Of a stretch of DNA of 64,000 bases, positions 6,954 through 59,382 are shown piece by piece. The stretch comes from Mucidula mucida (taxonomy: Eukaryota; Basidiomycota; Agaricomycetes; Agaricales; Physalacriaceae), in NCBI GenBank assembly GCA_015501055.1, contig JADNYV010000081.1:1-64000 (forward strand), given 5' to 3'. Numbering within the stretch: position 1 is the first letter of the stretch; each line of letters starts with the position of its first letter. The position numbers and the translations under genes were made by a program. The notes under the pieces were generated by a model. That model was not told where the DNA came from. It did no database searches and worked only from the letters and a program-made list of their open reading frames with translations.

Positions 6954-6956
6954 TAA

Positions 6957-23467: not shown

Positions 23468-23890
23468 TGCGAATAGTATCGATGCACGAGTGCTGGTGGT
23501 ACGAGAAAGAGATGCGAAGGGCCAAATCAGTAACAATGAGGGGTCACGTGGTGTGTGTCCTTGTTTGGCCGTTCGATCGACGATCAAATACTCTTGAGTC
23601 TGGCTTTTGCTTGTTGCCTATCGTTGTCATCTTCATTGTAACTCTTTGTCGTCTTCATTGTATTTCTTTCTGTGAGTCACGCCCTTACACACCGAACAAT
23701 GCTTACGGCCCCGTTTGAAAAATGAATGGACAGGCGCCATTGTTGCATTGTCCCGGTCAACGTGACTTGGTTATTTGCGCCAAACATGCCACGCTTCTAC
23801 CCATAGGGCTGCAGGGGGTGCGCTTGTACTTTGTCTCTCCCCACATCTCCCTTTCTGGTGCTGGGCGCTGGCGCCACACTTCGGCGACGT

Positions 23891-26176: not shown

Positions 26177-27570
26177 CTACGCAGTGTAAATACCATGGTC
26201 AGTGCTCGCCTGAGCAGATGTATCGTCACGGTCGGAGAGATCACGTAGAGAGTGCAGAAGGTTGCTGGCCGTAGGTCGATCTCTCGCGTCCTGCGCAAGA
26301 CATCTGACCAATACCTCCCACAGTTCATTACACGGAAGTTCGTCCATGGTTGGGCGAGGCGGCATTCGCTTCTTGACGATAACTTCGTTAATGACTCCGA
26401 TGTCGGTTCGGATATTCGAAAATGGAGGTTTCCCAGTGTACATCTAATGAGGCCGAAATGAGTCGAAGAGCGTGGGATACTCGAGCTGTTAGCACACCTC
26501 GATGACTGTACAACCGAATGAATAAATGTCCCGCGCTGGGAGATAGGCCTTTTCAAAAAGCGACGTGTCGATCATTTCTGGAGGCAGCCAACGAGTTGTG
26601 CCCTGTGAAAGAGTGGTGCTTCCTGGAGCCTGCGTCTCTGCCATGAGGCTTATACCGAAATCCGCCAGGACACAGTGAAAGTCATCGGATACCAGAACAT
26701 TGGCCTAGACGCGTTGAGTTCGCGTGTAACTTCGAGAAGCGGAGTACATACACCACGGATGTCTGCGTGAACGATTTGAGGATCAAGGTCATGCAGGTAC
26801 CGAATACCTTCTGCGATATCAACGATCTGGAGATGCGTCAGGACAACCGCGGAGTACAGGAAATATAGCACACCGATTGAAGGCGATCGTGATTTGGATG
26901 GTCGAGGAGGAAGCCCATGATGTTGCCGTTCTTCATCCACTCCGATATGAGACAAAAACATGGCGCGAAAAGATCATTGTTGATGCCTACGAACGGTAGG
27001 ACATTGGGATGCCGAAGCTGTCGCCACACTAGTGCCTCGTGGCATACAGCCTATCAGAGGGCGCCTTCAGCGACAAATACAGGGTATAAGCCTAAACGAT
27101 AACGCACTTTGAACATCTTTGTCCGGTCTGTAGTGACGAATAAGCGTAGAATCTTCAGGCATACGGGCTTCCGAGTAGTAGACAACGTTCCTTGCCAGAT
27201 ATCCTTTGATTACTGTCAGGAACTCGCCAAGAAGACGCATTCATGGAAGACAATCACCGCGAAACCGCCGCCCCAGATGGCGCTTTCTCCTTCTTTCTTT
27301 ACATCACGACAGATAAACGAATCTGGAAGCAGGTCGTATTGCCGCCCGAGGGCTCTTAGACACTTGATACACGTAAAACGATAAGTGTCAATTGTCGTGG
27401 AAGCGTCGAGTTCCTATATCAACTGAATGGCAGGCATATGAGAAGTAAAAATTAACCCATACTGTTTGTAGGAACTCCATCACAAGCGGGGCGACATCGC
27501 GTGATACACCGCCAATCGTTCTCCACACAGCCGCAGAGTCGGATCTTAACTGAGAGCGGACTTGGGCCAC
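26177..27570 (-). CDS. TKL-type protein kinase
   Basis: A protein kinase split by several introns. The N-terminal exon (about 27470-27570) reads LRSDSAAVWRTIGGVSRD. Then come CIKCLRALGRQYDLLPDSF, a Gly-rich loop region (IWGGGFA|DIWQGTL), the catalytic Lys in VCLKILRLF and the alpha-C region VWRQLRHPNVLPFVGI. The catalytic loop reads IVHADIRGAN, with HAD replacing HRD. The magnesium motif is ADFG (LADFGISLMAE), and the activation-segment end is RWLPPE. The C-lobe includes ARDIYSFGCTVIE and YTGKPPFSN. HAD in this position is usual in the large basidiomycete TKL family. It is probably a cytosolic Ser/Thr kinase of unknown target. Confidence 0.85.
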
Positions 27571-27679
27571 GAATTTGAGCCTTTCCTGTTCGTTCGCTTC
27601 ATTGGGGAGAGGGAGGTCATGCCAGGTGCGCTACATATCATCAGAATCTCAAATCTCTTGGAAATCGCTAAACCTGCTT

Positions 27680-28711
27680 TTATCTTCTCCTCGTTTGCCA
27701 TCTATACCAACGATCAGAATGTAAACTCTTTCGTTGAAAAGACAAAAGCACTCGCTGAACAAAAGCAATCGCTGACAGGGCGGATATATGACTCTGGAGA
27801 CGTGCTGTTTCGAACCGGCGCTCCCACTGATTCCAGGCTTCCTTCGCTCTTTCAAGGACCTTCTCGTCAACGTGCTCGCCATAGTGCATGCAGTCCACCG
27901 TGCGGAGGAGTCCGTACTTGCCCATCGGTTCCAGATCGAGCAACTGGTGTCGGACATGCTGCGTCAGATGGGCAACGGCGTGCCATATCCATGCCGACAT
28001 GTGGTAGCTGTTTTGCTCGACTACGTTATAGGATGGAGCGACGTCGGATGTGTAGAAGGCAAAAAGAGAGGCCAGGCGCTCGAGGTTGAAGGGATCCTGC
28101 TCGGGATGGAGAAATTCCATGATAGCCTGAGCTCTGAGGGGAGGACGTTGAATGGGATTCCCGCCGGCACGGTGAATAACCATGTTGTCCGCGGCATTAC
28201 ACGACAACAATGATAACGAGAACAATGAGAAGGGATGTCGTATAGCGTTGAGAAGGGATTGTGGCGTCGGGGTATTGTGTTGCTGGGCCTCGGGACTCAC
28301 GCCAAACACATTGGCACGAGGATCATCACGCAGAAGCGCAGCAAAGTGTCCGTTGCCACTAGACTGCGGCGCGTCGGCGTCGATGTAGCGCAACAAGTCC
28401 ACCTCTACGGAGAGCTCCCGATGCAGAACTCCGTCTATCAAAGGTGCGACGTGAGCCGTAAGGTATTCGTTCTGCGAGAAGTCTCTCATTTTCGAGTACA
28501 CGAGGTGCGTGAGCGCGCTGTGATACGCCAGATTGATACCTAAAGAACGACTGGCATCGACGGTTACGTTCAGATACGCGCGAGGGTTCTGAACGATTGG
28601 GTCGTCCCTCTGGAATAGATGGATATTCGCTACCGTCAGGTCCGCCGACAAAGAGACAGAGGAGCTAGAGCCAGACGGCAATGCGTGTGACGAGCTGTCA
28701 GAGGCGCTCAT
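27680..28711 (-). CDS. Hypothetical protein, 343 residues
   Basis: An uninterrupted frame starts MSASDSSSHALPSGSSSS, a Ser-rich disordered N-terminus. It is followed by a mostly helical body (LAYHSALTHLVYSKMRDFSQ; HMSAWIWHAVAHLTQHVRHQ). I recognise no domain. The last roughly 30 codons after RFETARLQ look unlike the rest, so the true C-terminus may be spliced onward. It precedes the TKL kinase in the same orientation. Function is unknown. Confidence 0.5.
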   Translation of the reverse strand: MSASDSSSHALPSGSSSSVSLSADLTVANIHLFQRDDPIVQNPRAYLNVTVDASRSLGINLAYHSALTHLVYSKMRDFSQNEYLTAHVAPLIDGVLHRELSVEVDLLRYIDADAPQSSGNGHFAALLRDDPRANVFGVSPEAQQHNTPTPQSLLNAIRHPFSLFSLSLLSCNAADNMVIHRAGGNPIQRPPLRAQAIMEFLHPEQDPFNLERLASLFAFYTSDVAPSYNVVEQNSYHMSAWIWHAVAHLTQHVRHQLLDLEPMGKYGLLRTVDCMHYGEHVDEKVLERAKEAWNQWERRFETARLQSHISALSAIAFVQRVLLSFQRKSLHSDRWYRWQTRRR

Positions 28712-29580
28712 GGTTACTCGCCAGCTTCCAGAGATCCTCGATTGTTATATGCTGCCTACCGTGCGAACACATTCTAATCTTGTCCTCCTCTCTAAAAGCG
28801 ACTGAGGAAGCAGCCATGTCATGGGATAACGATGGCGCACATACACGTGTGTCTTCCACGGAATACGAAACACCGAAGTGAATGGCCTGTTGCCATTTGA
28901 GAGAGACGTTTTCTCAGAACGTTCAGCTTTCTCACATATACAAATTACGGAGGTTATACTTTCAGTATGATACCGCGGAAGGAAGCGCAGGACGTAACGA
29001 CTGACAGTGAGAAGTAGTGCGTGTAACTTTTACGTGTGGCGCCTGAATTAGGCCTCCGCTAGATCGCTTGAAGCCTTGAGGGACAATTCTCTGGGTTAGG
29101 GTTAAACATGAGGGTGAAAAGATAAGATTACATTGCCTACGGCATAAAACTTCCGGCTTCGCGGCGGATTTTGCCGCGGCCCTCTTTCCGCCCGCCATGG
29201 CTATCTTCCTTCCTGCACCCATCGGCGCGGATTTACGGTCTGTCCAAGGGGGCGAGACCAGGGCTAGAAGTACTCTGGGATTTTATATCTCTCCGTCTCT
29301 TAATACACCCACACTACACGAACCTTCCCAAACGCTAACTGCCTAATCGAATAAGGCAAGCCTTGGAATCTAATGCTCCTGCTTCGTTTGACAACAGCTC
29401 GTCTCCTTCATTAGGTCGTATATCCTCGCGACATCTGAAGTGAATTTTACAAACCAAGCGACGCTTAACAGCCCGAGTCGGCCTTTTGTCGATTCGTTAT
29501 TATTCTCCTTGTAATTGGCCGCGGTGTGTAATTATGTCTTTTTCCTGAGATTTCTTATTCATAGACGATGAGTTTAGATC
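28712..29580. other. Intergenic upstream of the D-amino-acid oxidase
   Basis: About 0.9 kb between divergent genes, presumably holding both promoters. No motif is strong enough to name. Confidence 0.4.
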
Positions 29581-30507
29581 ATGGCGCCCACTATCATCGT
29601 TGTAGGCGCGGGCGTCATTGGACTCACCACCGCCATCCGCATCCTGCAGTCTTCATCTGAAGCGAAGGTTAGTATATCCTCTCAGTCGTTGCTTGTCTCA
29701 CCTTCCCTTAGGTCATCATACTCTCCAAGGACCTGCCAGGAGACCCTCTCATACCGACCTATGCCTCACCGTGTGCCGGAGCCCATCATCTGTCTTTCGC
29801 CGCCGACGATGACATTCTCCAGAGGAAAATTGACAAGCGTACTTTTGACGTGATGTGGGCACAGATAAAGGCGGCTGCAGAGATCACATCGGACAAGTGG
29901 GAAAGGGAGTATGGCGAGCATCTTCTCAAGCTTAGGCAGGCCGAATTCTATTGTCATCCCGGCGACAAACATATCGCATTCTTCGAAGATCTTCCCGACT
30001 TTCAGGTCCTCGAGCCCCCAGAGGACGCCCATCCCCCGATTCTTCACAGTGTGTCGTTTACGAGCATGACGATGGATACTGGACCGTACCTTGACGTCTT
30101 GGTGAAGCATTTCGAGGCACTGGGAGGCGTCTTGAAAAGAATTCAGCTAGGATCCTTGGCCGAATCTATCAACCATCCGGCGGTGGTTGCTCTCGCCTTA
30201 GAATCCCTAAATATTAAGCAGACAGTGCGTATTATTTAGTGCTCTATAACTTTGCACCGGTCTAGGGTCTATTCACCTCTCCGACGTCAACGACACCTCC
30301 ATGTACCCACTCCGAGGGCACGTTCTTGTCCTCGACGCTCCTTGGGTGAAGGAAGGTCGTACGCGCCAGGTCGGATCGCTCGCCGCCAGCGAAACCTTGG
30401 CGTCCGAATCGTCGTCAGCTGCAGAAGAAGTGGGTGGCGGAGAAGGCGGCGAACGCACGTACGTCATTCCTCGCAAGAGCGGACAGGTCGTCATCGGCGG
30501 CACGCGC
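29581..30507 (+). pseudogene. D-amino-acid oxidase, 5' part (cut by inversion breakpoint)
   Basis: FAD-dependent oxidative deamination of D-amino acids to 2-oxo acids with release of hydrogen peroxide; the family is usually peroxisomal. The N-terminus has the dinucleotide-binding motif VVGAGVIGL. Intron 29668-29711 is followed by SKDLPGDPL and GAHHLSFA, the usual AGAHxxSFA region. Further on are CTGLGSIHLSDVNDTSMYPL, GQVVIGGTR and a low-complexity Ser/Glu/Gly insertion. Two single-base losses between 30225 and 30254 must be assumed before CTGLG. At 30507 the homology ends at IGGTR. The missing C-terminus, beginning VGDWSATPDP, is at 42356-42045 on the opposite strand. The cut is at a codon boundary, and the two parts rejoin in frame. 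Confidence 0.85.
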
Positions 30508-30511
30508 GCAA

Positions 30512-32502
30512 CACATAGTGGTCACCCTTATATTCGTAGCGGCAAACGAACATGACGAGCACGTAAAACAGAGATTCCAGGTCATGCCGGTAGAGATGAC
30601 GGACTTGGGACTTATGGGGGTCTTGAAGGTCAATGGCCATGAAGGGAGGTGTTCCCGTGCGGCGCAGCAACGTATCGGATGCGTCATCTGAAAGCAGAGC
30701 AGCGAGGTCAAAGTCATTCGGAACGCCGTAAACATTTCCGTCCTCATCCTCGCGGATCATGATGTTGGACATGCTTAAATCGCGGTGGAGGAGTCTCGGG
30801 ACATCATACAGCCATTTATGAGCTGCAGACTAATTGGCATTGGAAACGAATGGGTTATATAGACGTGGAACTCACTCTGAAGGATGTCTAGGAAAACTTG
30901 GGCGATCTTGCGCGCGCTGGTCAACCTCGTTATCGCGTGCAGCTCTTCCGAGACGCAGATGTGCAGACAACGGTCTTCATAGTGATAAGTCTTCCCATCC
31001 ACGTATTCAGCGCTATTGACAAAGTCGCGCATGCGGGCTTGGGCAGAGTCCTCGGCTATCACGACGTCTTTGGAAGCGATCATGTTCGGGAGGTGGTTGA
31101 GGACCCAGGCATGTTTCTCGTCCGATTCGGCACACTGTCGCGCTCCTTGGATGAGGTCCATCTCTCTGGCGCGTGACTTGGGTGGAAAGCAGAATTTAAC
31201 GACAAAGCGCTTCTCGTCGGACGGACGTATGGCTCCAACGACGCAGGTGGCGCGCCCGATCAGACCAGGCTGGCGGAATACGATCTCTTTGAGAGTGTAC
31301 TCCGTATTCTCGATGTTCATTCGCTGATTGTAGAAGATTTTGCGCCAGTCGTGGGAGCCATTCTCTTCCGCGAGTTCGCAGGCCGATTGAGAGTTCGTAT
31401 ACAACGTCCACGAATCTTGGACGACGTTACGAAGCCCGAGATCTTCGGGAGTGAGGTGGCGTAGACCGTACACCATCAATATGAAGAGTTTCTGACCCTC
31501 TTCTGTCGAGAGGTCGACGGCGGTGGAAACAGCGACTATACTCCGGTCATAGTACTGCAGTTGGAATCGGTGGCGGTCGAACAATGTGACTATGCTGTGA
31601 GCGCGAAAGATGACGTCCGACAAGTGCTCCATGGCATATCGTGCGCATTCCATTTCCGTACGTTTCTGTGCCCAGTTATGATGACTTTCTTGTGTATTGT
31701 TTGAATCCGCATTCGAGGCTACGTTCGGCGCAATATGATCACTCGACGTACTCCCGTCGACATCGTCTTTCGGGCGCTTTCGTTGATTAGACGTAGGGCT
31801 GAGTTTTGTACCGTCGGAAGCAGCAGACCTCGAAGTTGGCGTGCTTGCCGGTTTGGTTAGGCATGGGTCCACACCTGAAATAGAGTAAGAATAAAACCGG
31901 CGGAAGTTCATGAATTGAAAGTTACCTTTATGTAGAACCCGGAGCTGGTGGTCGCTGCGGGACCAAGCCATGACGGTGTCTTCTCCTTCAACAACATGGA
32001 CGAGATCCAACATGGAGAAGGCTCTGTCGTGAATGCCGCCGCCGCCGGGTACAAGGTTTTCAACGAGGTTTCGACCTTGGTTGTTCGGCAGGGGATCAAG
32101 TTGCTCGATCAGGTTCATTACAACGCTGTAGAGGGAAATAATGACGCGGAAAAGCCCGTCTCCGGGGGCGGGACCTTTGATAGCCATGAAAAAGTCATTC
32201 AAGACCTTCTTGAAGTCTCCATGGGCAATGAGAGACGTCAAGAAGTTAACGAACGATGAAGCTTTGTCCCAGCTGGCAGGCGTTTCAAACACGAGTTCCA
32301 CAAACTTTTCGGCGTGCAAGAAGACGCGATGGTGCTGCAGGTCGTGGACTTTGCTCTTATATCCTCTGACGCCAGGTACGTTGCTGAGAGCCTGAGGTGT
32401 ACTGGGACTTGTAGAACAAGTATTGCTCGACATGAGAGAGAAAGCGTCGGGGTATCCCGTAGAAGCTGTTGGATCACTCGGAGGGACAACATGCATAAAC
32501 AA
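30512..32502 (-). pseudogene. FunK1 protein kinase, 5' part (cut by inversion breakpoint)
   Basis: Exons 31926-32502, 30876-31874 and 30512-30822 are separated by 51- and 53-nt introns with GT..AG ends. The N-terminal part contains the FunK1-specific region, including a Pro/Thr-rich insertion with basic patch QRKRPKDDVDG. The kinase core has FVVKF (catalytic Lys region), the catalytic loop LLHRDLSMSNIM and the magnesium motif NDFDLA (DFD in place of DFG). The C-lobe reads RHDLESLFYVLV, the FunK1 signature HDLESxxYV. At 30512 the frame ends at GDHYV. The expected C-terminal tail LKPPFDDWFDW begins at 42357. FunK1 kinases are a mushroom-specific expansion linked to multicellularity; substrates are unknown. 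Confidence 0.88.
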
Positions 32503-33521
32503 GCCGCCTCACTGAGCAATGCACCACCGACTTATTGGTCGACAGTATCTTTCCGTGTACGGGTTAAAATGAAAGGTCATCTACTATCACAGTATCCTGA
32601 GTCGTGAACAATCCGGTCTGCAATTTCCATCCATTCCACAGGGATGCCACCGACGTTGGGAGTGGATGGCAACCGCCGTCACCTCCTAGAAATGGTGACT
32701 CTAGCGTTCTGTGATGTTTCAATCATCCGTAGGCTGAAATCAAGTTTCCGAAGACGACAGGTAAGCCGGTGGTGTGGTGTGTTCGGATTACTGATGAGAT
32801 GTCAGCGTGCAGCGGGACAGCAAAGATTTCACTACGCACTTGGGACACGATACCAAATCGTCAAGTCTCTATTGACGTGCTACTCGAAGTGCGTGCCTCT
32901 GTACCTGCTCCTCTACCTTTCTTCATTCGGGAAGAGTGAGAGCCAGCGCATTCTACAGTATGCAAAAGTGTCAGGTCATTCTCTACGATTGAAGGAGTTA
33001 CAAGCACTGCTGTAAACAACATTGAAAGCGGCGAGTTCGAAAATTCTCAGCGTCTTTGATTGAGGACAGGACACGGGAGGCATGAAGAACACGGTCAAAG
33101 TGGCTTCATTTTAGGCTAGACGCACATTGAGTCATTACGAAGTGTCATTCACACCGTGCTCCTTCCGTTGTGTCCAGTTTCCGGAGCCAAAATTAGGCCG
33201 CCCAGTCGGACTTGTCATCCCAGGTGTGTAGATGGTGGGTTATCATAATAGTCATCGATTATCCGCTAATAGCTAGCCCAAGCCTTCTCGGAGATCTTAC
33301 AAAACCTGGAGTCCTATGAGCGTCTCCCCAGACCTCATTCACGACATCCTTTGCAGCTCTTTCATTGGTCATGACTTCAGGCCATGCATCAGATCCAGGC
33401 GCGCTAAGGATCCGGCACGCGCATTCTTCTATCACGCCCTCGACGACATAACGCTTCCGTTACGTAGATTGTGTACGAATCGTGAGAGAAGTCGCGCCCC
33501 AAGAACGCTCAGTACTGTTAC
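32503..33521. other. No gene recognised
   Basis: About 1 kb upstream of the kinase start, with short frames only. Confidence 0.4.
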
Positions 33522-34370
33522 TTATGGTTTCCAGAAATTTGAACCTGGGCCTGTGCAGTGATAGGCTGCACGACATGCCAGAAGGATAATCCGCTCAAAG
33601 AAAGTCAAATGACTCCTTCGTAAGTTACTCTGTTCTTTACTCGCATCCATTGAATCCAGAAGGCTGTACAAAGACATCTCTAGTCCTCTCAGGAGCCGCC
33701 TGAGAGAACCACCCAACACCACATGGGTTGCAACCTCTGTATGAATCACTAGGAGAAACAAATTCAGCCGTGGAACGTCTACGCTCACTCCTGTCATACG
33801 CCTCGTGTGGTCATGTTGACCTGATGTTGATTTGTCCATCCACACCAACTAAGTTTGCTCCACCTTCGCATTTAACAACAGCTCTTTAAATTTCTCATTT
33901 ATCCGGGCATCCCGAGAACTGATCGAAAGGGGACGAGCCTGGCGTATGAGGAAGTGTTCAAGCTCACAGGTATCACCTAACTCCGCAGTCCAATGAGCTC
34001 CCTTCGGCATTCGCCCATGTTCAACAGACTCAATCCCAATCCAATTACCATGCATCATGTCTCGGTCTTTTGTATCCGGAGAGATTTTGTAACTCTTCAC
34101 AGCCCTATCCCGGCGTTCCAGGAACCTGCATCAAACGAACCGACAAAGACCTCCTCCCGAAATGGACAACATGGCCCGAACTTTTGTGTCAAGTACACAT
34201 GAGGGTATGCGCGTGATTTGTGTGCGTAGGATACCCACGAGTTCCAGGTATTTCTGTGAAGTCTTGTCAAGTTGCTGATTCACTGCTTTTAGCCGCCAAT
34301 TTAACCCAAAAGATGCCAGCGTAGGACGTGCCTCCCATCTCCTTGCTTTGCGACCCTGGTGCGGGGTCAA
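33522..34370 (-). CDS. Hypothetical protein, fragmentary
   Basis: Three neighbouring minus-strand frames (34131-34370, 33849-34100, 33522-33848) have coding-like composition. The first two share one frame and are separated by a TGA and a few codons. I recognise no motif. It may be an intron-containing gene or a decayed one. No function is assigned. Confidence 0.25.
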
Positions 34371-34719
34371 CCGAGCCCATGAGTCGCAGCGACTAGGTAC
34401 CCTGAACGTATGCTGACTGCCTCCACATCAAAGTCTATCTTCTATCACCGTGTGTCACCGAACGTGCTTCTAATAACTCTCCTCCCCAAGAGACGAGTTG
34501 TAAAGGGGTTGACAGAGTCGATAGTCAAAGACGGCCGTGGACTGGAGATAAGAGTGGGGAGCTTTATAGTACGTGATTGCACGCCAGTCTTGAGCATGCC
34601 TAATATAGATAAGAGTGACCTTGGCACGTAGTACATACTAATACTTTATGGCACTGTTTGTGTGGGACATGAGCTAATCAAATAAAAATAGGTTTATTTT
34701 GCCGCCGTTGTCGCCCCAG

Positions 34720-35043
34720 TGTCGCGACGTTGAGCTCTCCATGTGACCGCGATCGGGGTTGGAACGTGGCTCAAGTGTCGATCGCCTTTGACCACCATCA
34801 TGACAAGATGACACTCCCCAATGGCACGACGACCTTCACGGTACACGCGACTTACTATGGTTTCTCTCCTCTCTCATCGTGTACGTCGTAGATTCCGGAA
34901 GACCTCCCTAATGGTTCTATTGTCGTCATGAACGGCGGAGAACCAAAAATTATGTCTCGCGAACATCTCTTCAAAGGGATCCCGGAGCGCAAGCCTCTTG
35001 TTCAATGTTGTGTCGGATGCAAAACTAAGTCAAGCAGGGAGGG
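34720..35043 (+). pseudogene. Unknown spliced gene, 5' part, interrupted by an LTR element
   Basis: The frame RGWNVAQVSIAFDHHHDKMT continues to NGTTTFT. A GT..AG intron (GTACACGCG...GTCGTAG) leads to IPEDLPNGSIVVMNGGEPKI and then PLVQCCVGCKTKSSRE, a Cys-rich stretch. The LTR element begins exactly inside the following codon. With one copy of the 5-bp duplication removed, the reading frame continues into 38106 and beyond. The acceptor at 34719 suggests further upstream exons I cannot define. Family unknown. Confidence 0.5.
35039..35043 (+). repeat. Target-site duplication, left copy (GAGGG)
   Basis: GAGGG directly precedes the LTR start TGTTAGCGAC and is repeated at 38101-38105 after the other LTR. 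Confidence 0.85.
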
Positions 35044-35571
35044 TGTTAGCGACTGACTAAGCCACGAGACTCAACCAGGTACCACAGCAAGAATTAAGGA
35101 AGAAAGCGTTCACGTTCGTAAGACTAGGCTAGGCCAGGTGTATAAACGAGATCGGAACTAAAGTACAATGATACTACACTACTGCTTATATACTAGTAAG
35201 TCTGTGTTTGAGACTCCTTGTCCATACGCGTTTCCACTAGGGATGCTCCACGCCCTTGACCCAGTGTGGTATGCTACTAGTCCGTGAAACCATTAAATAC
35301 GAGTGGTAACTGCATGTAAGTAATAATACTGAAACGTCCATGTGTGCTACGAGTGTCGGCGGTGTGTATACAATAGGGAGTCCATGAGGTATCGGCATGT
35401 ATGATGTCATCCATGTGTTGGGTGTGTGTCCGACATGAGTACGGCTTCGGTAATGAAAAGGAGTATGATCGGTGACGAAACAGATGATGAAACAGTCTGT
35501 TGGTTGATAAGACAAGCCCCCCGATAAGATATGATAAGATTGAAAATGTGAAAATATGGCGATTCATAACA
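35044..35571 (-). repeat. LTR (3' LTR on the element strand)
   Basis: 528 bp, starting TGTTAGCGACTG and ending TTCATAACA on the plus strand. It is flanked outside by GAGGG and is nearly identical to 37571-38100. Confidence 0.9.
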
Positions 35572-36114
35572 GAGTCCGTTCTTCTCGACGAATTCTTTAT
35601 TGACACAAGAACCCGTTGCTCCACTGTCAAGAAGGGCACTCGTTTCCCATTCAGAGCCTGTGTGTACGCTCTCTATGGTTACTCGGAGTTTCATGTCCTG
35701 CCCCTTTGTTCCCCGGATGTACTTCCTCGACTTTTTCAACTCCGTCACAACTTCCACCGCAGCTTCCTTTGTCAACGCTCTAATCGCCATCACCTTCTCC
35801 TCTGTCGCTTCTCTCTCTCTCCGCTCCGGCATCCATGCTCTCAAAATTCCCACTGCTCTCGGCACATCATCCTCTCTTAGACGTTGTGCGATCCACTCGG
35901 GCGTATTTGGCTCAAATCTTTCTTTCGCAGGTTTTGGTGGTAAAGTCGTCGATGATATTTTAGATGTTTCAGTACCCGTACTGTAAATAGATTCTGCATC
36001 TGACGACCCTTTCCTTGATGACTGCTCCGGCAGGACTGCGTCTACTGCGGGAGCTTCGCAAAACCCAGCTCTTCGGCCAACTTCTTCTTCTCCTTGTCGT
36101 TCATTTCGGTCCAT
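35572..36114 (-). CDS. Truncated retropepsin frame after Gag
   Basis: This frame overlaps the end of gag in a different frame, as in Gag/Pol frameshifting elements. It contains a charged linker (FEPNTPEWIAQRLREDDVPR) and then the protease active-site motif ALLDSGATGSCV. After VEKNG it reaches the LTR boundary, so the protease lacks its flap and C-terminal half. The frame runs on into the LTR for some codons without protease similarity. Confidence 0.75.
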
Positions 36115-36971
36115 AAACCCCGAATCGTCTGGGGTCGACCCTTCTTCGGACAGAACCTGCTAACGTAACCATGTTCGCCACAACTGAAGCAGAGTCCCCT
36201 TCGACGTGCATTATCAATGTCCATCGGCCTGCTGGCTCCTCCATAGGTAACGCCGGTGGCATCTTGTCGTGTGATCGGCGTCGGGGGTGGGTTCGTAGGA
36301 TTAGCTCTTGATGTAGCCACCTGCGGAGCTTGAGGCCGGGACTGCATTCCGGACCTCTTGCTCGCCGCCCGCCTTCTCCACAGCTGATCAATCTGAAGGA
36401 TCTGTGCCTTCCAATCCTTGTACTTCTCTGGCAACCCATCTCGGCTGCCATAGATCTGGTCGATGATCTTCTCGTTGACATTGGTCTCGAGAAGTCGCAC
36501 GACGAATGCATCATCCTTCGAGTATCCTGCCTGAGTGAGCAGGACCTCGAACTTCTGGAAGAAATCTTGAGCAGTGTCTTGCCCCTGGCGCAACCGCTTG
36601 ATCTGGTCTTGCGCGTCTCGCGCGAGGTTGGAATCCACAAATCGCTCCTTCAAGTCTTCCTTGAACTCCGTCCAAGAAACTGTCCATTCCTCTTCTTCCT
36701 CGTCGAAGTTCTGGTCCGAGTAGTTCTGGACCCATGCATCTACATGATCTCCTCGGATATAGGAGAGAACAACATCGATCCTTTCGGAGTCAGATGTGAG
36801 GTTGTTCTTCTTGTCACGGATGTATGTGAACATTGATCGCCACCAGCTCTTGTACTTGGACTTGTCCCCGTCATAGTCGTAAGGCTTGTTCACAAGGGAT
36901 CGGCCTTTGATTTCGGCATCGGCATGATGAGCGGGTGTGTGAGGAGCGGTTTTGGGTGCTTCGTTGGACAT
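36042..36971 (-). CDS. Gag protein of the non-autonomous LTR element
   Basis: 309 residues. A capsid-like retrotransposon Gag domain spans about 28-200 (YDGDKSKYKSWWRSMFTYI; DQIKRLRQGQDTAQDFFQKF). A basic Pro-rich linker leads to one zinc knuckle, CFSCGEHGYVSRFC, near residue 277. The third ligand position of a normal CX2CX4HX4C knuckle is Tyr here, with a His two residues earlier, so zinc binding may be altered. It is intact and resembles Gag of fungal Ty3-type elements. Its role would be particle formation and RNA packaging for retrotransposition. Confidence 0.9.
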   Translation of the reverse strand: MSNEAPKTAPHTPAHHADAEIKGRSLVNKPYDYDGDKSKYKSWWRSMFTYIRDKKNNLTSDSERIDVVLSYIRGDHVDAWVQNYSDQNFDEEEEEWTVSWTEFKEDLKERFVDSNLARDAQDQIKRLRQGQDTAQDFFQKFEVLLTQAGYSKDDAFVVRLLETNVNEKIIDQIYGSRDGLPEKYKDWKAQILQIDQLWRRRAASKRSGMQSRPQAPQVATSRANPTNPPPTPITRQDATGVTYGGASRPMDIDNARRRGLCFSCGEHGYVSRFCPKKGRPQTIRGLWTEMNDKEKKKLAEELGFAKLPQ

Positions 36972-37570
36972 GATGAATCGAGGTGATAAGATCAGAGAGT
37001 GAAAGGGTGAAAGTGGGGATATGGGAGATGCAGATCTTGATGAAACGGGTGAGGGAATAGAGGTTTGGATGAATAAGGAGGAGTTGCCTAGATCTGAAAT
37101 AGAATCCAGGACTTGGTAGGGTGGGGAATGATGATGTGTATCGTAAGGTAAGTAAAGTAGGTAGGTATCGTAACTGTCTACGCTATTTTACCGACTACTG
37201 ACTACGTATCTACGGAGCCCAAGAGCTCGTCACAAGTTCGCAATTGCCCAGCCGACGTCCCTCTGGTGTGAGGTAAGCCGAAGTTTTCCTGGGAACGGGG
37301 GTTGACCCGTAAACAGCGCCCACTGAAGTGCAACTGCCAAAAGTTCGTTCTCGTGAGAGCGGCTACTTCCAGCACCCGAGGCAGTTATCTCTAACTGTTA
37401 GCCGGCGCTACTGGGACCAATACACACGTATGCGGACATGCGCTGGAATTAGAAGTCCGTCGATCTGTAAACAGGGAAAGGGAATAGGGGAATGTGCGAT
37501 GATCAAACAGCGAAGTGCTGATCGACGATCAGGGATGTGTGGTAGGTGGTAGAAAGTAGTTCTGATCTTC

Positions 37571-38100
37571 TGTTAGCGACTGACTAAGCCACAAGACTCA
37601 ACCAGGTACCACAGCAAGAATTAAGGAAGAAAGCGTTTGCGTTCGTAAGACTAGGCTAGGCCAGGTGTATAAACGAGATTGGAACTAAAGTACAATGATA
37701 CTATACTACTGCTTATATACTAGTAAGCCTGTGTTTGGGACTCCTTGTCCATACATGTTTCCGCTAGGGTTAACTCCACGCCCTTGACCCAGTGTTGTAT
37801 GCTACTAGTCCATGAAACCATTAAATACGAGTGGTAACTGCATGTAAGTAATAATACTGAAACAACCATGTGTGCTATGAGTGTCGGTGGTGTGTATACA
37901 ATAGGAAGTCCATGAGGTATCGGCATGTATGATGTCATCCATGTGTTGGGTGTGTGTCCGACATGAGTACGGCTTCGGTAATGAAAAGGAGTACGATCGG
38001 TGACGAAACAGATGATGAAACAGTCCGTTGGTTGATAAGATAAGCCCCCCGATAAGATATGATAAGATGTGAGAATGTGAAAATATGGTGATTCATAACA
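37571..38100 (-). repeat. LTR (5' LTR on the element strand)
   Basis: 530 bp, with the same ends as 35044-35571. I could not identify a convincing tRNA primer-binding site next to it; the minus strand there reads GAAGATCAGAACTACT. Confidence 0.9.
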
Positions 38101-38105
38101 GAGGG
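38101..38105 (+). repeat. Target-site duplication, right copy (GAGGG)
   Basis: Matches 35039-35043 exactly. Confidence 0.85.
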
Positions 38106-38810
38106 CACAGGAAAGCCCTTCTCCATGTGCTCGGCCTGTAAATAGGCAAAATACTGTAGGTGCGCCGCCATTTGTTTCGTGGTGATGCTCTGCAGTCTGA
38201 TTTTCGGTAGCACAGCTTGCCAGAAGTCAGTTTATATCTGATACGCGTTATTTCGCATCCTTGATGGTCCTAGGAATGACTGGCGAGGACAAAGCAAGCT
38301 GTCTGCAGCGTCAAGCACAGAATGCGCAACTCAAGGCAAAAGAGGAAATCTGCGCAAAGGAAGGACGTCGATTCAAGCAACCCTCTCGCACTCTAGGCGT
38401 GATACCGGAAGAATCATAGCGCCATTCAATACGCGGTACACTTTCATGTCCCTCTGAGCCTCCAACCACCCATGTATTGTAGATATGCAATGCTCTACAG
38501 CTCGACAAAGGCCGCATGTCACCTCACCAGATCAACGAATATGCAGCTGCCTTTGTACTTGAGCGTGACAATTCAGCGCCGAACGATATCGGGAAGATGT
38601 GGCTCACCAGAATTGATGCGGCACCGTTATACATAGTGAAAAGCTTTCTTTCCGTACGTTTCCTTTCGGACTCCTGTTTCTACCCTACTGTATGATACGC
38701 AGGATGCTTCATTTGCGACCGCGACGAAGAACAATATGATTTTTGTCTGGCTAATGGAATCCGATCCCAAGCTTTTTATGTTGAGTATGGTGGAATCGGC
38801 CCCGCAATTT
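38106..38810 (+). pseudogene. Unknown spliced gene, 3' part, after the LTR element
   Basis: This continues the frame of 34720-35043: GTGKPFSMCSA, a 73-nt GT..AG intron, then SQLARSQFISDTRYFASLMV and KASCLQRQAQNAQLKAKEE. An intron after RTLG (GTGATA...TTGTAG) joins in frame to ICNALQLDKGRMSPHQINEY. A third intron (GTACGT...CGCAG) joins to DASFATATKNNMIFVWLMES. The frame then enters the CACGGTAG repeat cluster near 38811, so the gene is cut a second time. Three consistent splice junctions across the insertion show this was one gene. Family unknown. Confidence 0.55.
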
Positions 38811-39186
38811 GGCCGTGGCCGCTACCGTGCATGCACGGTAGCGGCTCACGGAGTTGCGCCACCTTCCACGTCCCCAGGAGCATCTACTTTCGAGCGGACG
38901 AGTTATGCGTCGGCTATAACATATATCAATGAACATATCTTGGTAAGATAACTTTGTGTGGTCAGACCAAAAATCACCGAGAATGAGCAAAGTTTTTCTC
39001 ATGGCCGCTACCGTGCGCACGGTAGACCCTGCACGGCCTATGGTCGCACGGTACTCACGGCAGCGGTCACGGTTGTCTGCACGGTAGCGGCCACGGTACT
39101 CTTACGTCATGCACGGTAGCGGCAGTAATGCGAGCACGGTAGCACGGTAGCACAGTAATCGCACGGCACTGACACGGTAGCGGTCA
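38811..39186. repeat. CACGGTAG-rich repeat cluster, left
   Basis: Begins with a perfect 26-bp palindrome split around CCGTGCATGCACGG (38819-38844). It continues at 39003-39186 with imperfect copies of GCACGGTAGCGGC in both orientations, separated by 0-30 bp. Confidence 0.8.
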
Positions 39187-39450
39187 TGGGTGTGACAGGT
39201 GCGTGACGACCTGTTACACCGGCGTTACCGTTTAACTCTCGTCTCTTCGTCGTTGATCAGGCATTGTCATTAGAGCAGAGACTAGGTGCATAAAGGTATG
39301 TCCACCGCTGTCTGGCACTCTGAACTTCCTTTAGCTCCTAACTCTACAGGTCTGACATCCTTTAGCTGTGGGATCACTCCTGGCAGCTTGCTCTATTCAA
39401 TCCGGACCCCACGACAACGTCTTGATTCCTGACACGACAGCCTTGAGTCG

Positions 39451-39959
39451 TTGAGCTGGACAGGGCCTCATGGGGCATATAAAATGGCTTGCCCTTCCAA
39501 GCTCAATCTTGAACAACGCGTAAACACGGTAACAATGAGGGTAAGTTCTTATCATGCCTTCGGCCTTTTTGTACTAATCAACTTGTTGCTTCGGCTTGCT
39601 ATTTACTCGCGCTTGCACACTCGCTTGCGTCTTTTTTCTCAGTCTCGTTCATCAATCCCCTTACGATGGCCTGATATATAATTGTTTCTTATAATGGCTT
39701 GAGAACACGGTTTACTATCTCTCATGCCGGGTTGATGCTGAGCCATGCTGGTGATGTCTTGCATGACACAGCTCTTGCTGCGTCGCCACTAGGTGTGTTT
39801 CTTATAGTTCTGCTCTATGTTCAATACATCGTGCCAGTAATGTTTTTTATACCCACCCTACTTACTTCTTGTGCCTATGTAGATTCACCCTCGAGTTTTG
39901 AGACATGTAGTCACTGCAAACGACCTCTTCAAGTCGGCTCCTAGCTACCCTATTGGATT
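39451..39959 (+). CDS. Possible small spliced gene inside the candidate DNA element
   Basis: A short exon begins MACPSKLNLEQRVNTVTMR at 39484 and stops at a GTAAGT donor. Further on, HDTALAASPLGVFLIVLLYV is followed by a GTAATG...ATGTAG intron, and IHPRVLRHVVTANDLFKSAP ends at a stop near 39966. I cannot establish the joins between the first and later exons. The middle is hydrophobic. It shares a DTAxxxxPLGVxL pattern with a frame near 43245. Family unknown. Confidence 0.25.
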
Positions 39960-40163
39960 CGCCTAAGGTTACAGGTATTATCTCAACTTGTCGAGTGATC
40001 TTTTAAGAGGTGTGAGGCCGGCAGTGTAGTATGCCGCTGTGCTAGTCACAGCATCCGATTTGTCCCCACCCTTTGAGGGTTCATTGCACCCCTCAACAAT
40101 CACTTCAATTCAATGTAGACTCAAACACCGAAGTCAGCACCATGGTGCACACCGTTGGTGCTA

Positions 40164-40319
40164 TCACTTAGCCACCTCCTCAACTCCGCCAAGGAGGAGG
40201 GTGGAAGGTGTAGCTGCGGAAGCACTTCCACCACCAGTTGTGCATGTTACTTGACTGAAAGGTGTTCTGATTGCCACTGTAGCGGGAAGAAGAGATAGGA
40301 GGGAGAGAAGAGCGAACAT
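40164..40319 (-). CDS. Small putative secreted peptide, 51 residues
   Basis: MFALLSLLSLLPATVAIRTP is a good signal peptide. It is followed by a short Gly/Ser/Ala-rich mature part with one Cys and a stop at 40164. A donor near the end could extend it. No family is recognised, and chance is possible. Confidence 0.3.
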   Translation of the reverse strand: MFALLSLLSLLPATVAIRTPFSQVTCTTGGGSASAATPSTLLLGGVEEVAK

Positions 40320-41203
40320 TTTGTTGAGTAAACCTATTCAAACATGTACAATATCCTTTTTTTTAATCTTAAAAGCCATCGGGATGAATATACGGACAAT
40401 AAGACCCTGACAGGCCCACTACACGTCTCGAGTTCTAAAAAGCGTCTCGCGGTACATTTTGAGAGAAGCCAAGTTCGTGTAACTACCGGAATCGCAACGG
40501 ATGAGCGAAACAAACTGAAATCTGTGGCAAAGGCTATTCCATATAAACTACAGGCTGGAGAAGAAGAAAACTAGATATATTCATGGTTTACATAGGCTCG
40601 TCGTGATGGATGGTGATGGACGAGAGGCAAGCTGCAATCGCGTAGGGAGCGAAACGAAAGAACCGCCCGGAAACGGAAGGATTCGTACGAAAGGCCCTGA
40701 CAGGGACATTCGTACGAAACTTTCGTATGAAGCGCGGTTGATCGCGAAAGCCACGCTACACAGCCACCTGTTAACCCTACGCCTCACATTCACAAGGTCA
40801 GCCATTTGTCGTCTTGAAGCTTCTCACCGTGTCAAAAACAATTTTATCATGCAACATTAAGTATGTAGCAGTCTATGTCCATAATATTCAACATAGCTCT
40901 GAACTCTCAATATAGACACATTGAGGTGTATTGAACGTCGCATAGCGCAACACAAAGACAACACAATGGACGTAGTGGCTACGGCTATGCTGAGGTCACC
41001 CATCACGAAAACCGCCAAACCGTGTGAATGCGCCCGTTTCGTCCGTGTCCGTGAGATCGCGGTACGGCACACCCGGATTCGCGAAACTCTAAACCGTTTT
41101 GGTCCCTACGATCGCGCCATAGCAGCGTTACGCCTTCAAGTCACAGTGTGACCATGTTCGCGTAACGCTGCATGCCACAATAACAGGGTCCATCACAGCA
41201 GTG

Positions 41204-41275
41204 ATGCACGGTAATGATGCACGGTAGCGGCTACGGCCACGGTAGCGTGCACGGTAGCACGGTAGCGGCCACGGC
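41204..41275. repeat. CACGGTAG-rich repeat cluster, right
   Basis: Five CACGGTA copies in 72 bp. The last part is the inverted partner of 38812-38830. Confidence 0.75.
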
Positions 41276-42044
41276 ACTTTTGTGGTGCCCTGTCGCAGCA
41301 TCTGCTACGTCTTGGGTGCCCGTCCTTACTACTACGTCTGAAGCATTTCCTTTATTCAAGTCCATATCTGATACGTCCCTACTGCAATAGGAAGTCAGGA
41401 CTCGCCACGGATTTCGTGCGCTGCCAGATTGTCAACGCTGTCCACCAGGGTGTCTTGCCTCTGTTACTATGAGCGCCATGAGCGGTCTACACGAGATTCA
41501 TTGTGCTACTCATCTTAAATGGAGAGGAGGTATGATACGCATCTACGCATGGGAACATGGCCCCACAGCTGTCCATTTGTTCCACATCTTTCCGTGGACA
41601 TCATTCAGGTACCGCCGGACTCAATTCTAGTTATAAGTCCGCTTTCCTCATGGATGACCCACCTCATCTTTAGCCCTACATCCCCACTACACATCCATGT
41701 CACCAAGAAAGGACACGAACGGCTGCATCGAGTCGTCTGAAGCTGCGGGATATATCATTACGATTGAGGCGCCGAGTCGGAATCCGAGCCCAATGCCTCT
41801 TGCTGCTACAGAAAATCTGCTGGAAGGATCGAGGTTTGACGCAGGGGATATTGTCCGACGAGAACGACAAAGAGAAAATGTGAGTATCCAGAAAATGTGT
41901 ACATTGTAAGCTCTGACGAAGAACACAGACGTGGCGACAATGGCAAATGATAGACCTGTAGCAAATGTGACAATGCCTGTACAATGATATACACTATACT
42001 TCGTCCTCTGATACGTAAGGAAAAGCACTTTCAAAATTGCTTGG
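41276..42044. other. No gene recognised
   Basis: Short overlapping frames on both strands (41519-42034) without a motif or splice support. Confidence 0.4.
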
Positions 42045-42356
42045 CTACTCCTTTAGCAACACAACGACCTCCTCCGCACATCCCCAAGATGCTTGCCATC
42101 CTGCACCAGAATGTCCGTAGTTATGGATTACCTTAACGCCAGCGACCGCACTTCCTTTCGCCAGTCTGAGCCCATCTTTCCTAGCCGGCCTGAACCCAAC
42201 GACCTCCTTCAACACAATGGGGTCTAGGTCTTCCGGTAAAGGCTTCCTCGTCGGCGACTCCAAATAGGCAGGCGACAGCTCCGGAAAAATCTCCAGTGCC
42301 CTACGCTTGATCGACAACGTAGTAGCCGGATCTGGCGTTGCGGACCAATCCCCAAC
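42045..42356 (-). pseudogene. D-amino-acid oxidase, 3' part
   Basis: The frame begins at the breakpoint with VGDWSATPDPATTLSIKRRA. It contains VGFRPARKDGLRL, the conserved substrate-contacting Arg region (GxRPxRxGxR). It ends with VIHNYGHSGAGWQASWG, the family's C-terminal FAD/active-site signature, and EEVVVLLKE before the stop. There is no start codon or upstream exon on this strand. Joined to the 5' part at 29581-30507 it completes a normal-length oxidase. The chain does not end in an SKL-type peroxisomal signal. Confidence 0.88.
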
Positions 42357-42860
42357 CTAAAGCCACCTTTCGATGATTGGTTCGACTGGACAAAGTCTTG
42401 GGCGGACCTAAAAAAGACGAAAACCGACTTCTTCCATGTGTCCAATGCGACATCTATTGCCTCCCGAATTGCCCCTGGGCTCAATCAATTTGAGCCCTGG
42501 GTCCTCTCCCTTCTGAGTGAACTTCGCAAAGGTTTCAGAAACAAGCAGGATGCGGAGGCTCCCATCCCGTCTTTCATCCCCGATGAAACGATGTTACAGG
42601 CCATAAAGGCTGGTCTTCTCGAGGCACCGGTCGTGAAACAGCCGTTGAAAACGGACGATGAGACACTAGGAGGAAAGGTCACTTACTGGACCTTTTACAA
42701 GTACATGGTTCGGCTTGGTGGCGAACCTCTAGAGGTGCGATGCCCCAACCTCGCCTTCCCAGCCAGTAGTCCAGTATGTATGTCGCGACTCGGAATAGTT
42801 TTGAATAATGTACTTCTCATAATCTCATTGTGTATTTGTGATCTGTGTTTCGTGTTTTGA
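42357..42860 (+). pseudogene. FunK1 protein kinase, 3' part
   Basis: It begins at the breakpoint with LKPPFDDWFDWTKSWADLKK. This is the tail following the HDLESxxYV helix in FunK1 kinases (xPPFxxWF...W..L...K..F). Then come LNQFEPWVLSLLSELRKGF and an extension through GGKVTYWTFYKYMVRLGGEP. It ends at a stop at 42858-42860, or earlier if the GTATGT at 42774 is a donor. There is no start codon of its own. It completes the kinase whose 5' part is at 30512-32502. Confidence 0.82.
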
Positions 42861-43632
42861 ACTCACCACCGGCGCCTTTCTTGTCTACGTGACTTCGTGA
42901 AAGATATGACAGGCTTTAGTCGAGTAGACGATTCTCAGGCTATGTAGGATGCCCTGCTCAATTTCACCAGGGAAACGGTGCAGTTCCCTGTGATGGTCGA
43001 AAATGGGTGGATTTGAAATACAACACGCGAACAGGTCACACCACATGACCCTCAGTCACGAGAAACCAACTTCCTTTCAAACCGAACTTGTTTTCTCACC
43101 AGCGCCCATTCCTTACGCAGTATGCCAGCGGATACCATACATCCATGTCATGTGCAGGCCTGTCATCCGTAGCGTTTCTCCGGATTCAATATCGCACTCG
43201 GTCTCACTCTGTCTTCGCTCATTGACTATGGCAGACTGGTGACACAGCTTTTGTAGGCGCTGGCCCATTGGGCGTGCTTCTTGCGCATACGGATTCTGTA
43301 TCCACAACAATCCCCGTACTATTCGGCTTCCGTATATGCTATGTCGTGACATATATGCTTACAGCTACCACCCATCCAAAAGGTGATTCGCTCCAGAAAC
43401 CGATATGGCATGAGGGGGGGCTGCTATGCCGCCGCCGTCACCGTACGCTCACCCAGTAGGTAACGCCACTACCCTTTCTCCGATTCGCACCTACGTGTCC
43501 GCTGCGATGAATTGCTGCTACGATCCAGTATGCCGCTATTTAACGGATGGGCATGCCTCCAATCTCTGCAACCGCTCGTCCACAAGGCTCTAGAACGAAT
43601 ACTTCGCTCGATTCATCCTCGACTCTTTTTCA
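42861..43632. other. Intergenic with possible short coding remnants
   Basis: A frame near 43241-43400 reads GDTAFVGAGPLGVLLAHTDS. It resembles both the start of an FAD-binding motif and the pattern in the short gene near 39750. No complete gene could be assembled. Confidence 0.3.
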
Positions 43633-45230
43633 ATGCCGTTGACGCCTTCCACCACTCTCGTCTACCCAGAAAATCCTATTTGGACTGGGCCGACCCGGAC
43701 ACCCTTCGACTTGTGGATGGCAATGATTTAGTCCTGCAGTTTGTCGTACGTCGATTATTCTTCGTCTGCCGATGAATCACGGAGCATCTATAGCTGAACT
43801 CATGTCACGTTGTCCCCGGTCCCATCGACGTGGAACGATTTTGCAAAGCTGTCGGTATCACTGTAGGACGTTTCCCTCACACCGCCGGAAGACTGAAGCG
43901 CGATGGTGATTCTTGGAGGGTACGTCAAATTTGCTCCAGCATTTCTCAGTCTAATCTCTCGACCAGGTTGACTTGACGAACTCTCCCGTTCCCGTCACCG
44001 TTGTTGACGACGACACCCTCACCGCCCCATTCCCTGACGAAGACCGTTATCACATCATCCAAAAGAGCATCCTTCCCTTCGTCTGCGAGGTACCCATGCG
44101 GGAAGCCTTCCTGGGGGAAGACGTCCCGCTCCTCTCCTTCAAACTGACGCGCCTTCTCAAAACTGGCGAAACCGTCATTGGCAACTCGTGGAACCACACT
44201 CTGGGAGACGGAACGACTGTTCACAATTGCATGCATACCCTTTCTCAGGCGTATTTGGGACTGGAACTACCGCCGCTTCCCTCGTACGTCAAGAGGAAGT
44301 GGCCGGACCCGAGGAAGGAGATGGGTCTTGGCGATGAAGCGTTCAAGCAGGTTACACCGCACGTCGTGCAGGACTTTACATTGGATGAGCTACTAGCGAG
44401 ATATGAGAAGGAAGCGAAGGAAGCTATTATGATGGATCTCTGTTTCACGAAGGCAGAGTTGGACGCCATCATGAAGAAGACGAAGGATGGTGCCGAGGAA
44501 GGCGTGAAGCTTTCTAAGCAGGATGCCCTCTCATCGTACGTTGTTTCCCTCCACAATCGGATTTTAGATCGCCCCATTGTCACCGTCATGAATTTGATGA
44601 ATGTACGTCCTGCGTGCTTTTTTGTCGTCGCGATGTATTGATGTCTTTTTGTTTGTAGTATCGCACCCGTGATATTGATCCAGATGCTCTATACCGCCAC
44701 CCTCAGAGCGCTGGTAACTGCACAATCACCGCGTTCGCAGACGTCACGGGAAAGACTCAGTTGGACGATATCTCAGAGATGGCTGTCGCCATCCGCAAGG
44801 AGACCAACAAATGCCGCACGAACGACTGGACAGCGCTCTACCTGATGCTCAACGGATACCAGTTTGAACAAGCTATCAAGAGTGGGCGCTTCCACATGAG
44901 CCCTCATCCAAGATATTGCATTATCAATTCTCTCCTAGGGTATGTTAATCGTTGTCTCTGTCCCTGTGGCGTGTATCCTGAACTTGGCGTTCCTCTAGAT
45001 TGGACGAGAATGGGCTCAGGAGTTTTGGGTACAAGGGGCGGAGCCAGTACTATACGGAGACTTCGTGGGAGCGCATGTTCCGTGTACATCCTGCTAATCC
45101 TGTACGTCAGGCCGATGGGACGTGGGAGACGAACGAGGGAAGCGTCGTCGTGTCGTTCCGATTGCGACCACATCTAAAGCAGAAGATGGTGGATATGAAG
45201 AAGGCGGATATGGCATCTTTGGGTCTATGA
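43633..45230 (+). CDS. BAHD-like O-acyltransferase no. 1 (Transferase family)
   Basis: Acyl-CoA-dependent acyl transfer to hydroxyl or amine groups of small molecules; the cytosolic fungal members include trichothecene 3-O-acetyltransferase-like enzymes. Exons: 43633-43745, 43794-43919, 43967-44602, 44659-44939 and 44999-45230, with all introns GT..AG and 47-59 nt. The catalytic HxxxD motif is SWNHTLGDGTTVH in exon 3. The C-terminus includes LRSFGYKGRSQYY, at the DFGWG-like position. A single base is missing near 43710: LVYPENP is in one frame and LVDGNDLVLQF in the next, both matching the paralogue at 61140. It is otherwise intact. It lies beside the F-box gene and regulators no. 2 and no. 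3. Confidence 0.82.
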
Positions 45231-45814
45231 GATGGTCAGAAGACGACTCGGAGAATGGACTACTGATGGATACAATAACACTCTATGATGATTATAATTC
45301 TCTGTACGATAGAGACGTGATATACTTCCTCTGCTATCTATCCGACGGAATCTGCTATCAACGATGTTTCTATTTGAACGTCTAAGTATATAAGACACTA
45401 CTATCGTATCAAATGACTCATCGGCTGGGTAAATGGAAGTGAGGAAATGTTCAAGTCCCTAGTTTACACTTTGACATACACGTCAAGACCTGTATTTGGC
45501 AGCGCACCATCCCGTATTCCCGACTATCTCCAAGTGACACGCCACGGCGAAAGAAGCTTTGATAGTAGGCACGCCGCTGCCGCTGCTGATGAAGCTGCGT
45601 TCATTTATAGCTGTCGCCACATGATCGTTTAGAATACCGGAACCGACCGCGATTCATGATCCCCCGTTCAATGTTTCGTATTGTGCTGACACTACGTGTG
45701 ACTCGGAGAATGATGCATACAATCGATGTATGTGCACACGGGCCGTATAAAGTGCTCCTTCATCGTGTAACATCGATATTAGATGGCGCAAGCGCGGGTG
45801 TCCCTTCCGGATAA
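45231..45814. other. Intergenic, convergent gene ends
   Basis: Lies between the 3' ends of acyltransferase no. 1 and the F-box gene. No gene recognised. Confidence 0.5.
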
Positions 45815-47095
45815 CTACATGCCCGACTCGGACATCAATCTATATGCTTGTCGCTGAGCGATGTCAGACAAGAATTCGACAACGGGTGGAGGAATTGACG
45901 CGTGTACGTCAAGCTCCAATATTATAAGCGTGTCCCGCTGATTTTCCAACACGCCGATCATCCCGTCCTCGTTGATACTCCCCGCCTTGAGTACGAGCGA
46001 CAACAGCGCGCATTTCGACCGGCGGAAGAACGCGACGCTGCGACGCCCGGGCCATGCAGTGAGCTCGTTCCCGGATTCGTCGGGCGGCGAAACCAGGCTC
46101 TTAACGAGCGCCGTGATGTTGAGGTGCTGTAAAGCCGGGAGTGACAGTTGATCGAGTAACATCTCTACCGGAATCCAAGGAGCCCTGGTGGTCGATGGAC
46201 TAGGGAGCACATCCCCATGTCCAGTCCCCTCAGTGCATGCGCCACGAATAGTTAGGCGACGAAGATAGGATAGGAAGATCTTTGAGGGTGGAATGGAAGT
46301 CGCGGTGATCTCGAGAGGCTCGACGATATCGATAAGTGCCAACTCCTCCAACTGTGGTATCTGCTGGAGAAGCTTTAGCACGGAGGGAAAGAGAATATGC
46401 TGTACAGAGAGAGTTGTCAATGTGGCGGTGGGAATTCGCTGCACGTCCAGGGATCCTAAGGCTTCGTGAGGAATGCATAACTCGAGGTCGCGGATAGAAT
46501 GCACACGAAATAGGAACTCTTGCTCCCATAGACTGCGACCGATCCTCAACGTGCGAAGTCCCGTCGGTGCCCCATATGTGCGCGCCAACGGCGATGGTTT
46601 ACCCGCCAAAGGCCCGTCGTCCCACTCATCTCTGAACTCCACGTCCATTACTAAGTGTTCCACGCGAGGAAGCACGTCGAGAAACATTTGAAATAGTCTG
46701 ATGGAGTCTTCAACACTCGCAATATGCCACTCGAAGAATTGAAAGGCCAGCGTCAATGGAAGGTCGCCGGAGCGCTCCAGGCGCTCCTTCGCGATGTGGA
46801 AATAGGATTGTTTCTCCTTCGTGCCGCGACGAATATCCGACGAAGCCTTCATGCAAGATGGAACATACAACGTCATGGTCGCCCACATGCGCGGATCCGC
46901 GAGTGTTGTCGCCCGCCATAAGCGACAGACTTTCTGTATAATTATGCGCGCGCTCTCTAGAGAGTATATCGATGTTTCGAAACAGCTGCAATCCGCATTG
47001 AGGGGATGATAGATGTCGCAATAGGATTGAAAGATGCGGGAGAGGACCTCGGGTGGGAGCGAGTGGATCGGGCTAGATTTGACGGGCAGAGGCAT
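45815..47095 (-). CDS. F-box/LRR-like protein
   Basis: A single-exon 426-residue frame. The N-terminal F-box-like domain reads IHSLPPEVLSRIFQSYCDIY followed by VCRLWRATTLADPRMW, the standard basidiomycete layout. Irregular leucine-rich stretches follow (LRTLRIGRSLWEQE; LEELALIDIVEPLEI; LQHLNITALVKSL) to a stop after SESGM. This is an SCF ubiquitin-ligase adaptor by family; the target is unknown. It is intact and one of hundreds typical of a mushroom genome, so proximity to the metabolic genes may be accidental. Confidence 0.85.
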   Translation of the reverse strand: MPLPVKSSPIHSLPPEVLSRIFQSYCDIYHPLNADCSCFETSIYSLESARIIIQKVCRLWRATTLADPRMWATMTLYVPSCMKASSDIRRGTKEKQSYFHIAKERLERSGDLPLTLAFQFFEWHIASVEDSIRLFQMFLDVLPRVEHLVMDVEFRDEWDDGPLAGKPSPLARTYGAPTGLRTLRIGRSLWEQEFLFRVHSIRDLELCIPHEALGSLDVQRIPTATLTTLSVQHILFPSVLKLLQQIPQLEELALIDIVEPLEITATSIPPSKIFLSYLRRLTIRGACTEGTGHGDVLPSPSTTRAPWIPVEMLLDQLSLPALQHLNITALVKSLVSPPDESGNELTAWPGRRSVAFFRRSKCALLSLVLKAGSINEDGMIGVLENQRDTLIILELDVHASIPPPVVEFLSDIAQRQAYRLMSESGM

Positions 47096-49463: not shown

Positions 49464-49490
49464 GATACGCCCATCCTCGGCACGTCCTCG

Positions 49491-59349: not shown

Positions 59350-59382
59350 GGTGATTAATGTTAGGCAATGCAACAGGACATG

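Follow-up and report, generated by a model that had tools for sequence, protein, structure and literature searches.

On one contig of the Mucidula mucida assembly, two unrelated genes, encoding an oxidase and a FunK1 kinase, are each present as two separated pieces, which raises the question of whether a single inversion cut both of them and how the broken ends were joined. The window, i.e., the complete stretch of 64,000 nucleotides analyzed, represents C838:1-64000 of the 149,929-base contig C838 and was compared with the whole assembly, comprising 59.9 Mb in 1047 contigs. A preliminary description derived from the letters of the window had proposed an inversion of approximately 11.8 kb breaking both genes, reversal of which would repair both in frame. 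Features of the locus are compiled in Table 1.

Table 1. Features of the split oxidase and kinase genes and of the very probably inverted block between them (window coordinates; C598 and C838 are contigs of the same assembly).
Feature	Position	Strand	Remarks
Oxidase 5' part	29581..30506	+	Exons ~29581-29667, 29712-30224 and ~30253 on; limits deduced from the C598 paralogue
Oxidase deletion region	30208..30262	+	Window 39 bp shorter than C598
Left inversion junction	30504-30506		GCG common to both parent sequences
Kinase 5' part	30504..32590	-	C838:138390-140466, 88%; PF17667; runs through the break into RACRR-stop
Presumably older junction	33154..33159		Switch from kinase-cluster DNA (to 33153) to oxidase-downstream DNA (from 33160)
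LTR retroelement in the inverted block	35044..38100		LTRs 35044-35574 and 37571-38100; gag; 5-bp target duplication GAGGG
Dispersed repeat, ends partly inverted	38797..41289		Not in C598, where 239 bp of unrelated sequence take its place
Oxidase 3' part	42045..42358	-	Stop codon 42045-42047; matches C598:17052-17735; Pfam DAO 277-351
Right inversion junction	42358/42359		No shared base
Kinase 3' part and 3' flank	42359..42903	+	C838:140467-141012, 94%; protein homology to ~42758

Split genes and their unbroken relatives

The oxidase frame on the plus strand ends with IGGTR at 30507, and the minus strand, from 42356, encodes the C-terminus of the enzyme (VGDW...HNYGHSGAGW). On the minus strand, the kinase can be read as far as GDHYV, the last codon of which occupies 30514-30512; the kinase tail, KPPFDDWFDW, is encoded on the plus strand immediately past 42357. 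Both split genes thus lie where the preliminary description had placed them, and its arithmetic of the flip proved correct. Past the break, the kinase of the window now terminates in a few foreign residues, RACRR.

An unbroken paralogue of the oxidase was detected on contig C598. Window positions 29000-30506 correspond to C598:17738-19285 (minus strand) and positions 41700-42358 to C598:17052-17735, with the two halves only 2 bp apart (17738/17735) and within a single 216-aa open frame. Splicing at predicted sites yields a protein of 393 aa, residues 4-390 of which align, at an E-value of 1.3e-82, with the D-aspartate oxidase structure 9vpf; the next-best structure was 7ct4, a D-amino acid oxidase (E 1.4e-34). 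By sequence similarity, the gene product is predicted to be closest to D-aspartate oxidase, an FAD-dependent enzyme of the DAO family (PF01266), a resemblance that the preliminary description, which named a D-amino-acid oxidase, had not noted. The C598 paralogue matches this family over its full length, whereas the window copy, which carries an additional 39-bp deletion, matches only as two pieces. The 5' piece covers positions 200-270 of the profile with an E-value of 0.00087, which falls short of the curated cut-off, and the 3' piece yields an E-value of 4.6e-8. A protein search returned 765 oxidase relatives, of which 120 were listed and 12 of those aligned. All 12 aligned homologues continue across the proposed join, as the preliminary description required, yet the rejoined window halves are one residue short: each homologue possesses one extra residue at this position (glutamate in 11, aspartate in one), and C598 also encodes one more. 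The break therefore removed the equivalent of about one codon at a site where the oxidase is conserved.

Within the kinase 5' part, the FunK1 domain (PF17667) was matched in two pieces (E 1.8e-23 and 4.9e-13; 83.4 and 49 bits versus a cut-off of 24.1), and no Pfam match was obtained for the C-terminal tail. The family has many relatives in the genome, where scoring of 107 out of 442 candidates gave at least 116 exon-level matches, and the window copy is distinguished by being separated from its tail. In all seven paralogues examined base by base (C838 at 140 kb, 83 kb, 92 kb and 133 kb; C523; C132; C119), the kinase halves abut (window 30504-31500 and 42359-42903), two bases remaining unaligned by BLAST in one of them owing to a mismatch. 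These seven are not independent, the C523/C132 and the C838 pairs being near-identical. Counter to the simple picture, the halves of two kinase copies on C860 are separated by approximately 45-52 bases that do not align, and homology confined to the 5' half was seen at about a dozen further places. Six kinase relatives, including named proteins of Hymenopellis radicata and Mucidula mucida, were also inspected across the join. The expected continuation in frame was observed for four of the six, but P0006 continues in a shifted frame and P0003 is unaligned over the tail.

In summary, two unrelated genes are each split into complementary halves and each is contiguous in an un-inverted relative, i.e., on C598 for the oxidase and in seven of seven examined paralogues for the kinase. 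Beside three shared bases, 0 bp of the kinase and 2 bp of the oxidase are missing. The complementary breakpoints and the intact arrangement of each gene, as well as the junction bases, were determined by comparison with paralogues. Judged from these comparisons, complementary cutting of two unrelated genes is far above chance, and it is what a two-break inversion predicts. An inversion of approximately 11.85 kb, extending from about 30504-30507 to 42358, is very probably real, and the joined halves in the paralogues bear out this part of the preliminary description. An un-inverted copy of the fused oxidase-kinase locus was not detected in the whole assembly. Searches for second copies of the outer flanks returned only paralogous stretches of 81-82% identity and short matches for 42900-50000, and a single 76% stretch for 20500-25398.

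Junctions and mode of joining

At the left junction, identity to the oxidase runs through 30506 and identity to the kinase begins at 30504; at the right junction, the oxidase extends through 42358 and the kinase starts at 42359. Taking C598 as parent, the net loss amounts to 5 bp, since the three shared bases were retained in one copy only and 2 bp of the oxidase are missing. Because both parent sequences are readable in one genome, the scar left by the repair can be described at single-base resolution. The preliminary description had assumed blunt ends at both junctions and a 4-bp filler, GCAA, at one of them. Neither assumption held, as the left junction has three shared bases and the GCAA at 30508-30511 belongs to the kinase, with one substitution relative to most paralogues; a junction "filler" deduced from sequence alone can hence be parental sequence. 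The GCG overlap is compatible with microhomology, of which it is no proof, the chance of three or more shared bases at random cuts in these two sequences being 5.5%.

No inverted match exceeding those in shuffled sequences was found within 50, 200 or 500 bp of the breaks, and within 1000 bp the longest one measured 12 bp (shuffled mean 10.5, maximum 14). The earlier statement that repeats are absent from the breaks is in accordance with this result. Likewise, three and zero shared bases and a net loss of about 5 bp, i.e., little or no junction homology and a small loss, point to end joining, as originally suggested, and not to repeat-mediated recombination. The same data bear on the possibility that the block was flipped in the assembly only. 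Repeats inside the block and a large inverted duplication further along the contig would be in line with such an artefact, but an assembler flip normally requires an inverted match at the breakpoints, where none beyond the shuffled expectation was present. Moreover, the window contains no N, and the two joins, which lie inside genes rather than repeats, are reciprocal with a discrepancy of no more than 5 bp, so that an assembly artefact is considered very unlikely.

The oxidase break falls in an 8-bp CG-rich palindrome, CACGCGTG in C598, and the kinase break likewise in an 8-bp CG-rich palindrome, TGCGCGCA in seven of seven kinase paralogues. Furthermore, the left flank of the window (25399-29775) recurs on C71:71949-76395 and C291:31341-35777, where oxidase homology ends inside the gene at window position 29775, unlike the break in the window. 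Because palindromes occur at both breaks, the oxidase on C71 and C291 is cut elsewhere and an inverted duplication is located downstream in the kinase cluster, the region could be a site of recurrent breakage that is sequence-directed rather than random, although this reading appears doubtful. Beyond the oxidase segment on C71 and C291, putative transporter-like frames were noted by reading of the frames.

PMC11152077 describes 87 inversions in Fusarium graminearum, ranging from 156 bp to over 2.6 Mb, and reports rearrangement breakpoints inside coding sequences of fungi. As far as these accounts extend, known two-break, end-joined inversions of fungi and Drosophila likewise feature non-repetitive breakpoints, reciprocal junctions, few bases shared or lost, and cut genes. 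The present case differs from them in that both breaks lie in genes and that the ancestral bases were obtained from paralogues of the same genome and not from another strain. The literature listings searched contained no report of this locus. The event represents an ordinary kind of chromosome damage and implies no new mechanism.

Order of events and contents of the block

A third junction, at 33153/33160, was absent from the preliminary description. It joins kinase-locus to oxidase-locus DNA and, at the position matching 33160, the oxidase-downstream DNA of C598 and C920 runs on into other, unrelated DNA. Oxidase and kinase were therefore not ancestral neighbours in those copies. The junction is presumably older than the inversion.

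The best explanation of the locus, with a probability of roughly 0.8, is that two double-strand breaks, one per gene, were followed by end joining among mosaic segmental duplications. An earlier segmental duplication and fusion would have placed one oxidase-locus copy and one kinase-locus copy side by side on the same strand. Later, one double-strand break in the oxidase and one in the kinase would have freed the block of approximately 11.85 kb, which would then have been reinserted in the opposite orientation. End joining may have sealed the left junction at three shared bases and the right one without any, at a net cost of about 5 bp, depriving the oxidase of its C-terminal quarter and the kinase of a C-terminal tail of approximately 133 residues.

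Alternatively, a single complex repair episode could have joined oxidase- and kinase-locus fragments from different places, creating the three junctions (30506, 33153/33160 and 42358) in one step. The entry of the C598 and C920 sequences into unrelated DNA at 33160 would suit this scenario, and both histories require an equal number of breaks. However, among the eight orders and orientations possible for two fragments, the one observed is the exact inversion of a fused pair, for which a fused intermediate accounts without luck. A one-step origin is hence regarded as unlikely, and fusion followed by inversion is preferred.

The block also contains mobile DNA. The two LTRs of the retroelement differ at 4.5%, and the element is missing from C598; comparison with a plasmid collection gave no match, a search that is uninformative for a fungus. 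Given this element and the dispersed repeat with inverted ends, the inversion could be attributed to alternative transposition or to recombination between inverted repeat copies. Neither element reaches a breakpoint: the edge closest to one, at 41289, is still about 1.07 kb away from 42358. In addition, positions 30504-30506 and 42358 showed no element ends and no target duplications. These observations make a transposon-mediated inversion extremely improbable.

State of both genes and surroundings

Reversal of the block was expected to repair both genes in frame. The halves do rejoin, but approximately 5 bp are gone on balance, including the position of the conserved oxidase residue, and the oxidase additionally carries the separate 39-bp deletion. 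The latter takes away the predicted splice acceptor of intron 2 together with the beginning of exon 3, is independent of the inversion and eliminates codons for a motif conserved in solved homologues. Together with the missing codon, it implies that un-flipping alone would not restore the oxidase.

Between the window and C598, 3.2-6.2% of the aligned bases differ in four main blocks, compared with 0.93% (C71/C291) and 0.65% (C920/C598) between presumed allelic contigs. Based on these values, C598 is disfavoured as an allele of the window copy and is treated as a paralogue; it may nevertheless represent a highly diverged haplotype. The 0.65% of mismatches between C920:12300-13539 and C598 is accompanied by 37 gaps in 1.2 kb, suggesting indel-rich sequence quality. 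Relative to C598, the 5' part of the oxidase has a dN/dS ratio of approximately 0.20 and the 3' part one of approximately 0.10. Such low ratios suggest that the copy was probably constrained for most of its history and functional until recently, and the break is probably young.

The two halves of the window kinase are about equally distant from their nearest paralogue, with a divergence of 6.8% for the 5' part and of 6.1% for the 3' part. Other paralogues are uneven, with 8.9% and 28.1% for C119 and 22.0% and 7.2% for C523/C132 (5' and 3' part, respectively), which indicates exchange within the kinase family and hence a mosaic family. In the preliminary description, two genes were considered lost in one event. 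Both genes were indeed cut, but the loss was overstated in view of the unbroken C598 oxidase and the many FunK1 copies. Because these remain, the presumed loss of function of the window genes need not have a strong effect. The locus illustrates decay by rearrangement of segmental duplicates, in this case of an oxidase and an expanded kinase family.

Downstream on the same contig, the FunK1 cluster includes an inverted duplication, either real or an assembly fold-back, in which C838:73875-85393 pairs with 138394-149929 and 89500-93833 with 132189-136518. Its arms are 98.2% and 97.1% identical, and approximately 38 kb of mostly unpaired DNA lie between them. At 2138-7243 of the window, a Copia-like element was observed, with a single 1506-aa open frame at 2463-6983 and, on either side, 308-bp repeats that are 98.7% identical. 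Furthermore, a scan of ten frames at 43955-62000, five of which were without a match at 0.001, revealed matches to a transferase family, a P450, a short-chain dehydrogenase and a fungal transcription factor, perhaps representing a secondary-metabolism region.
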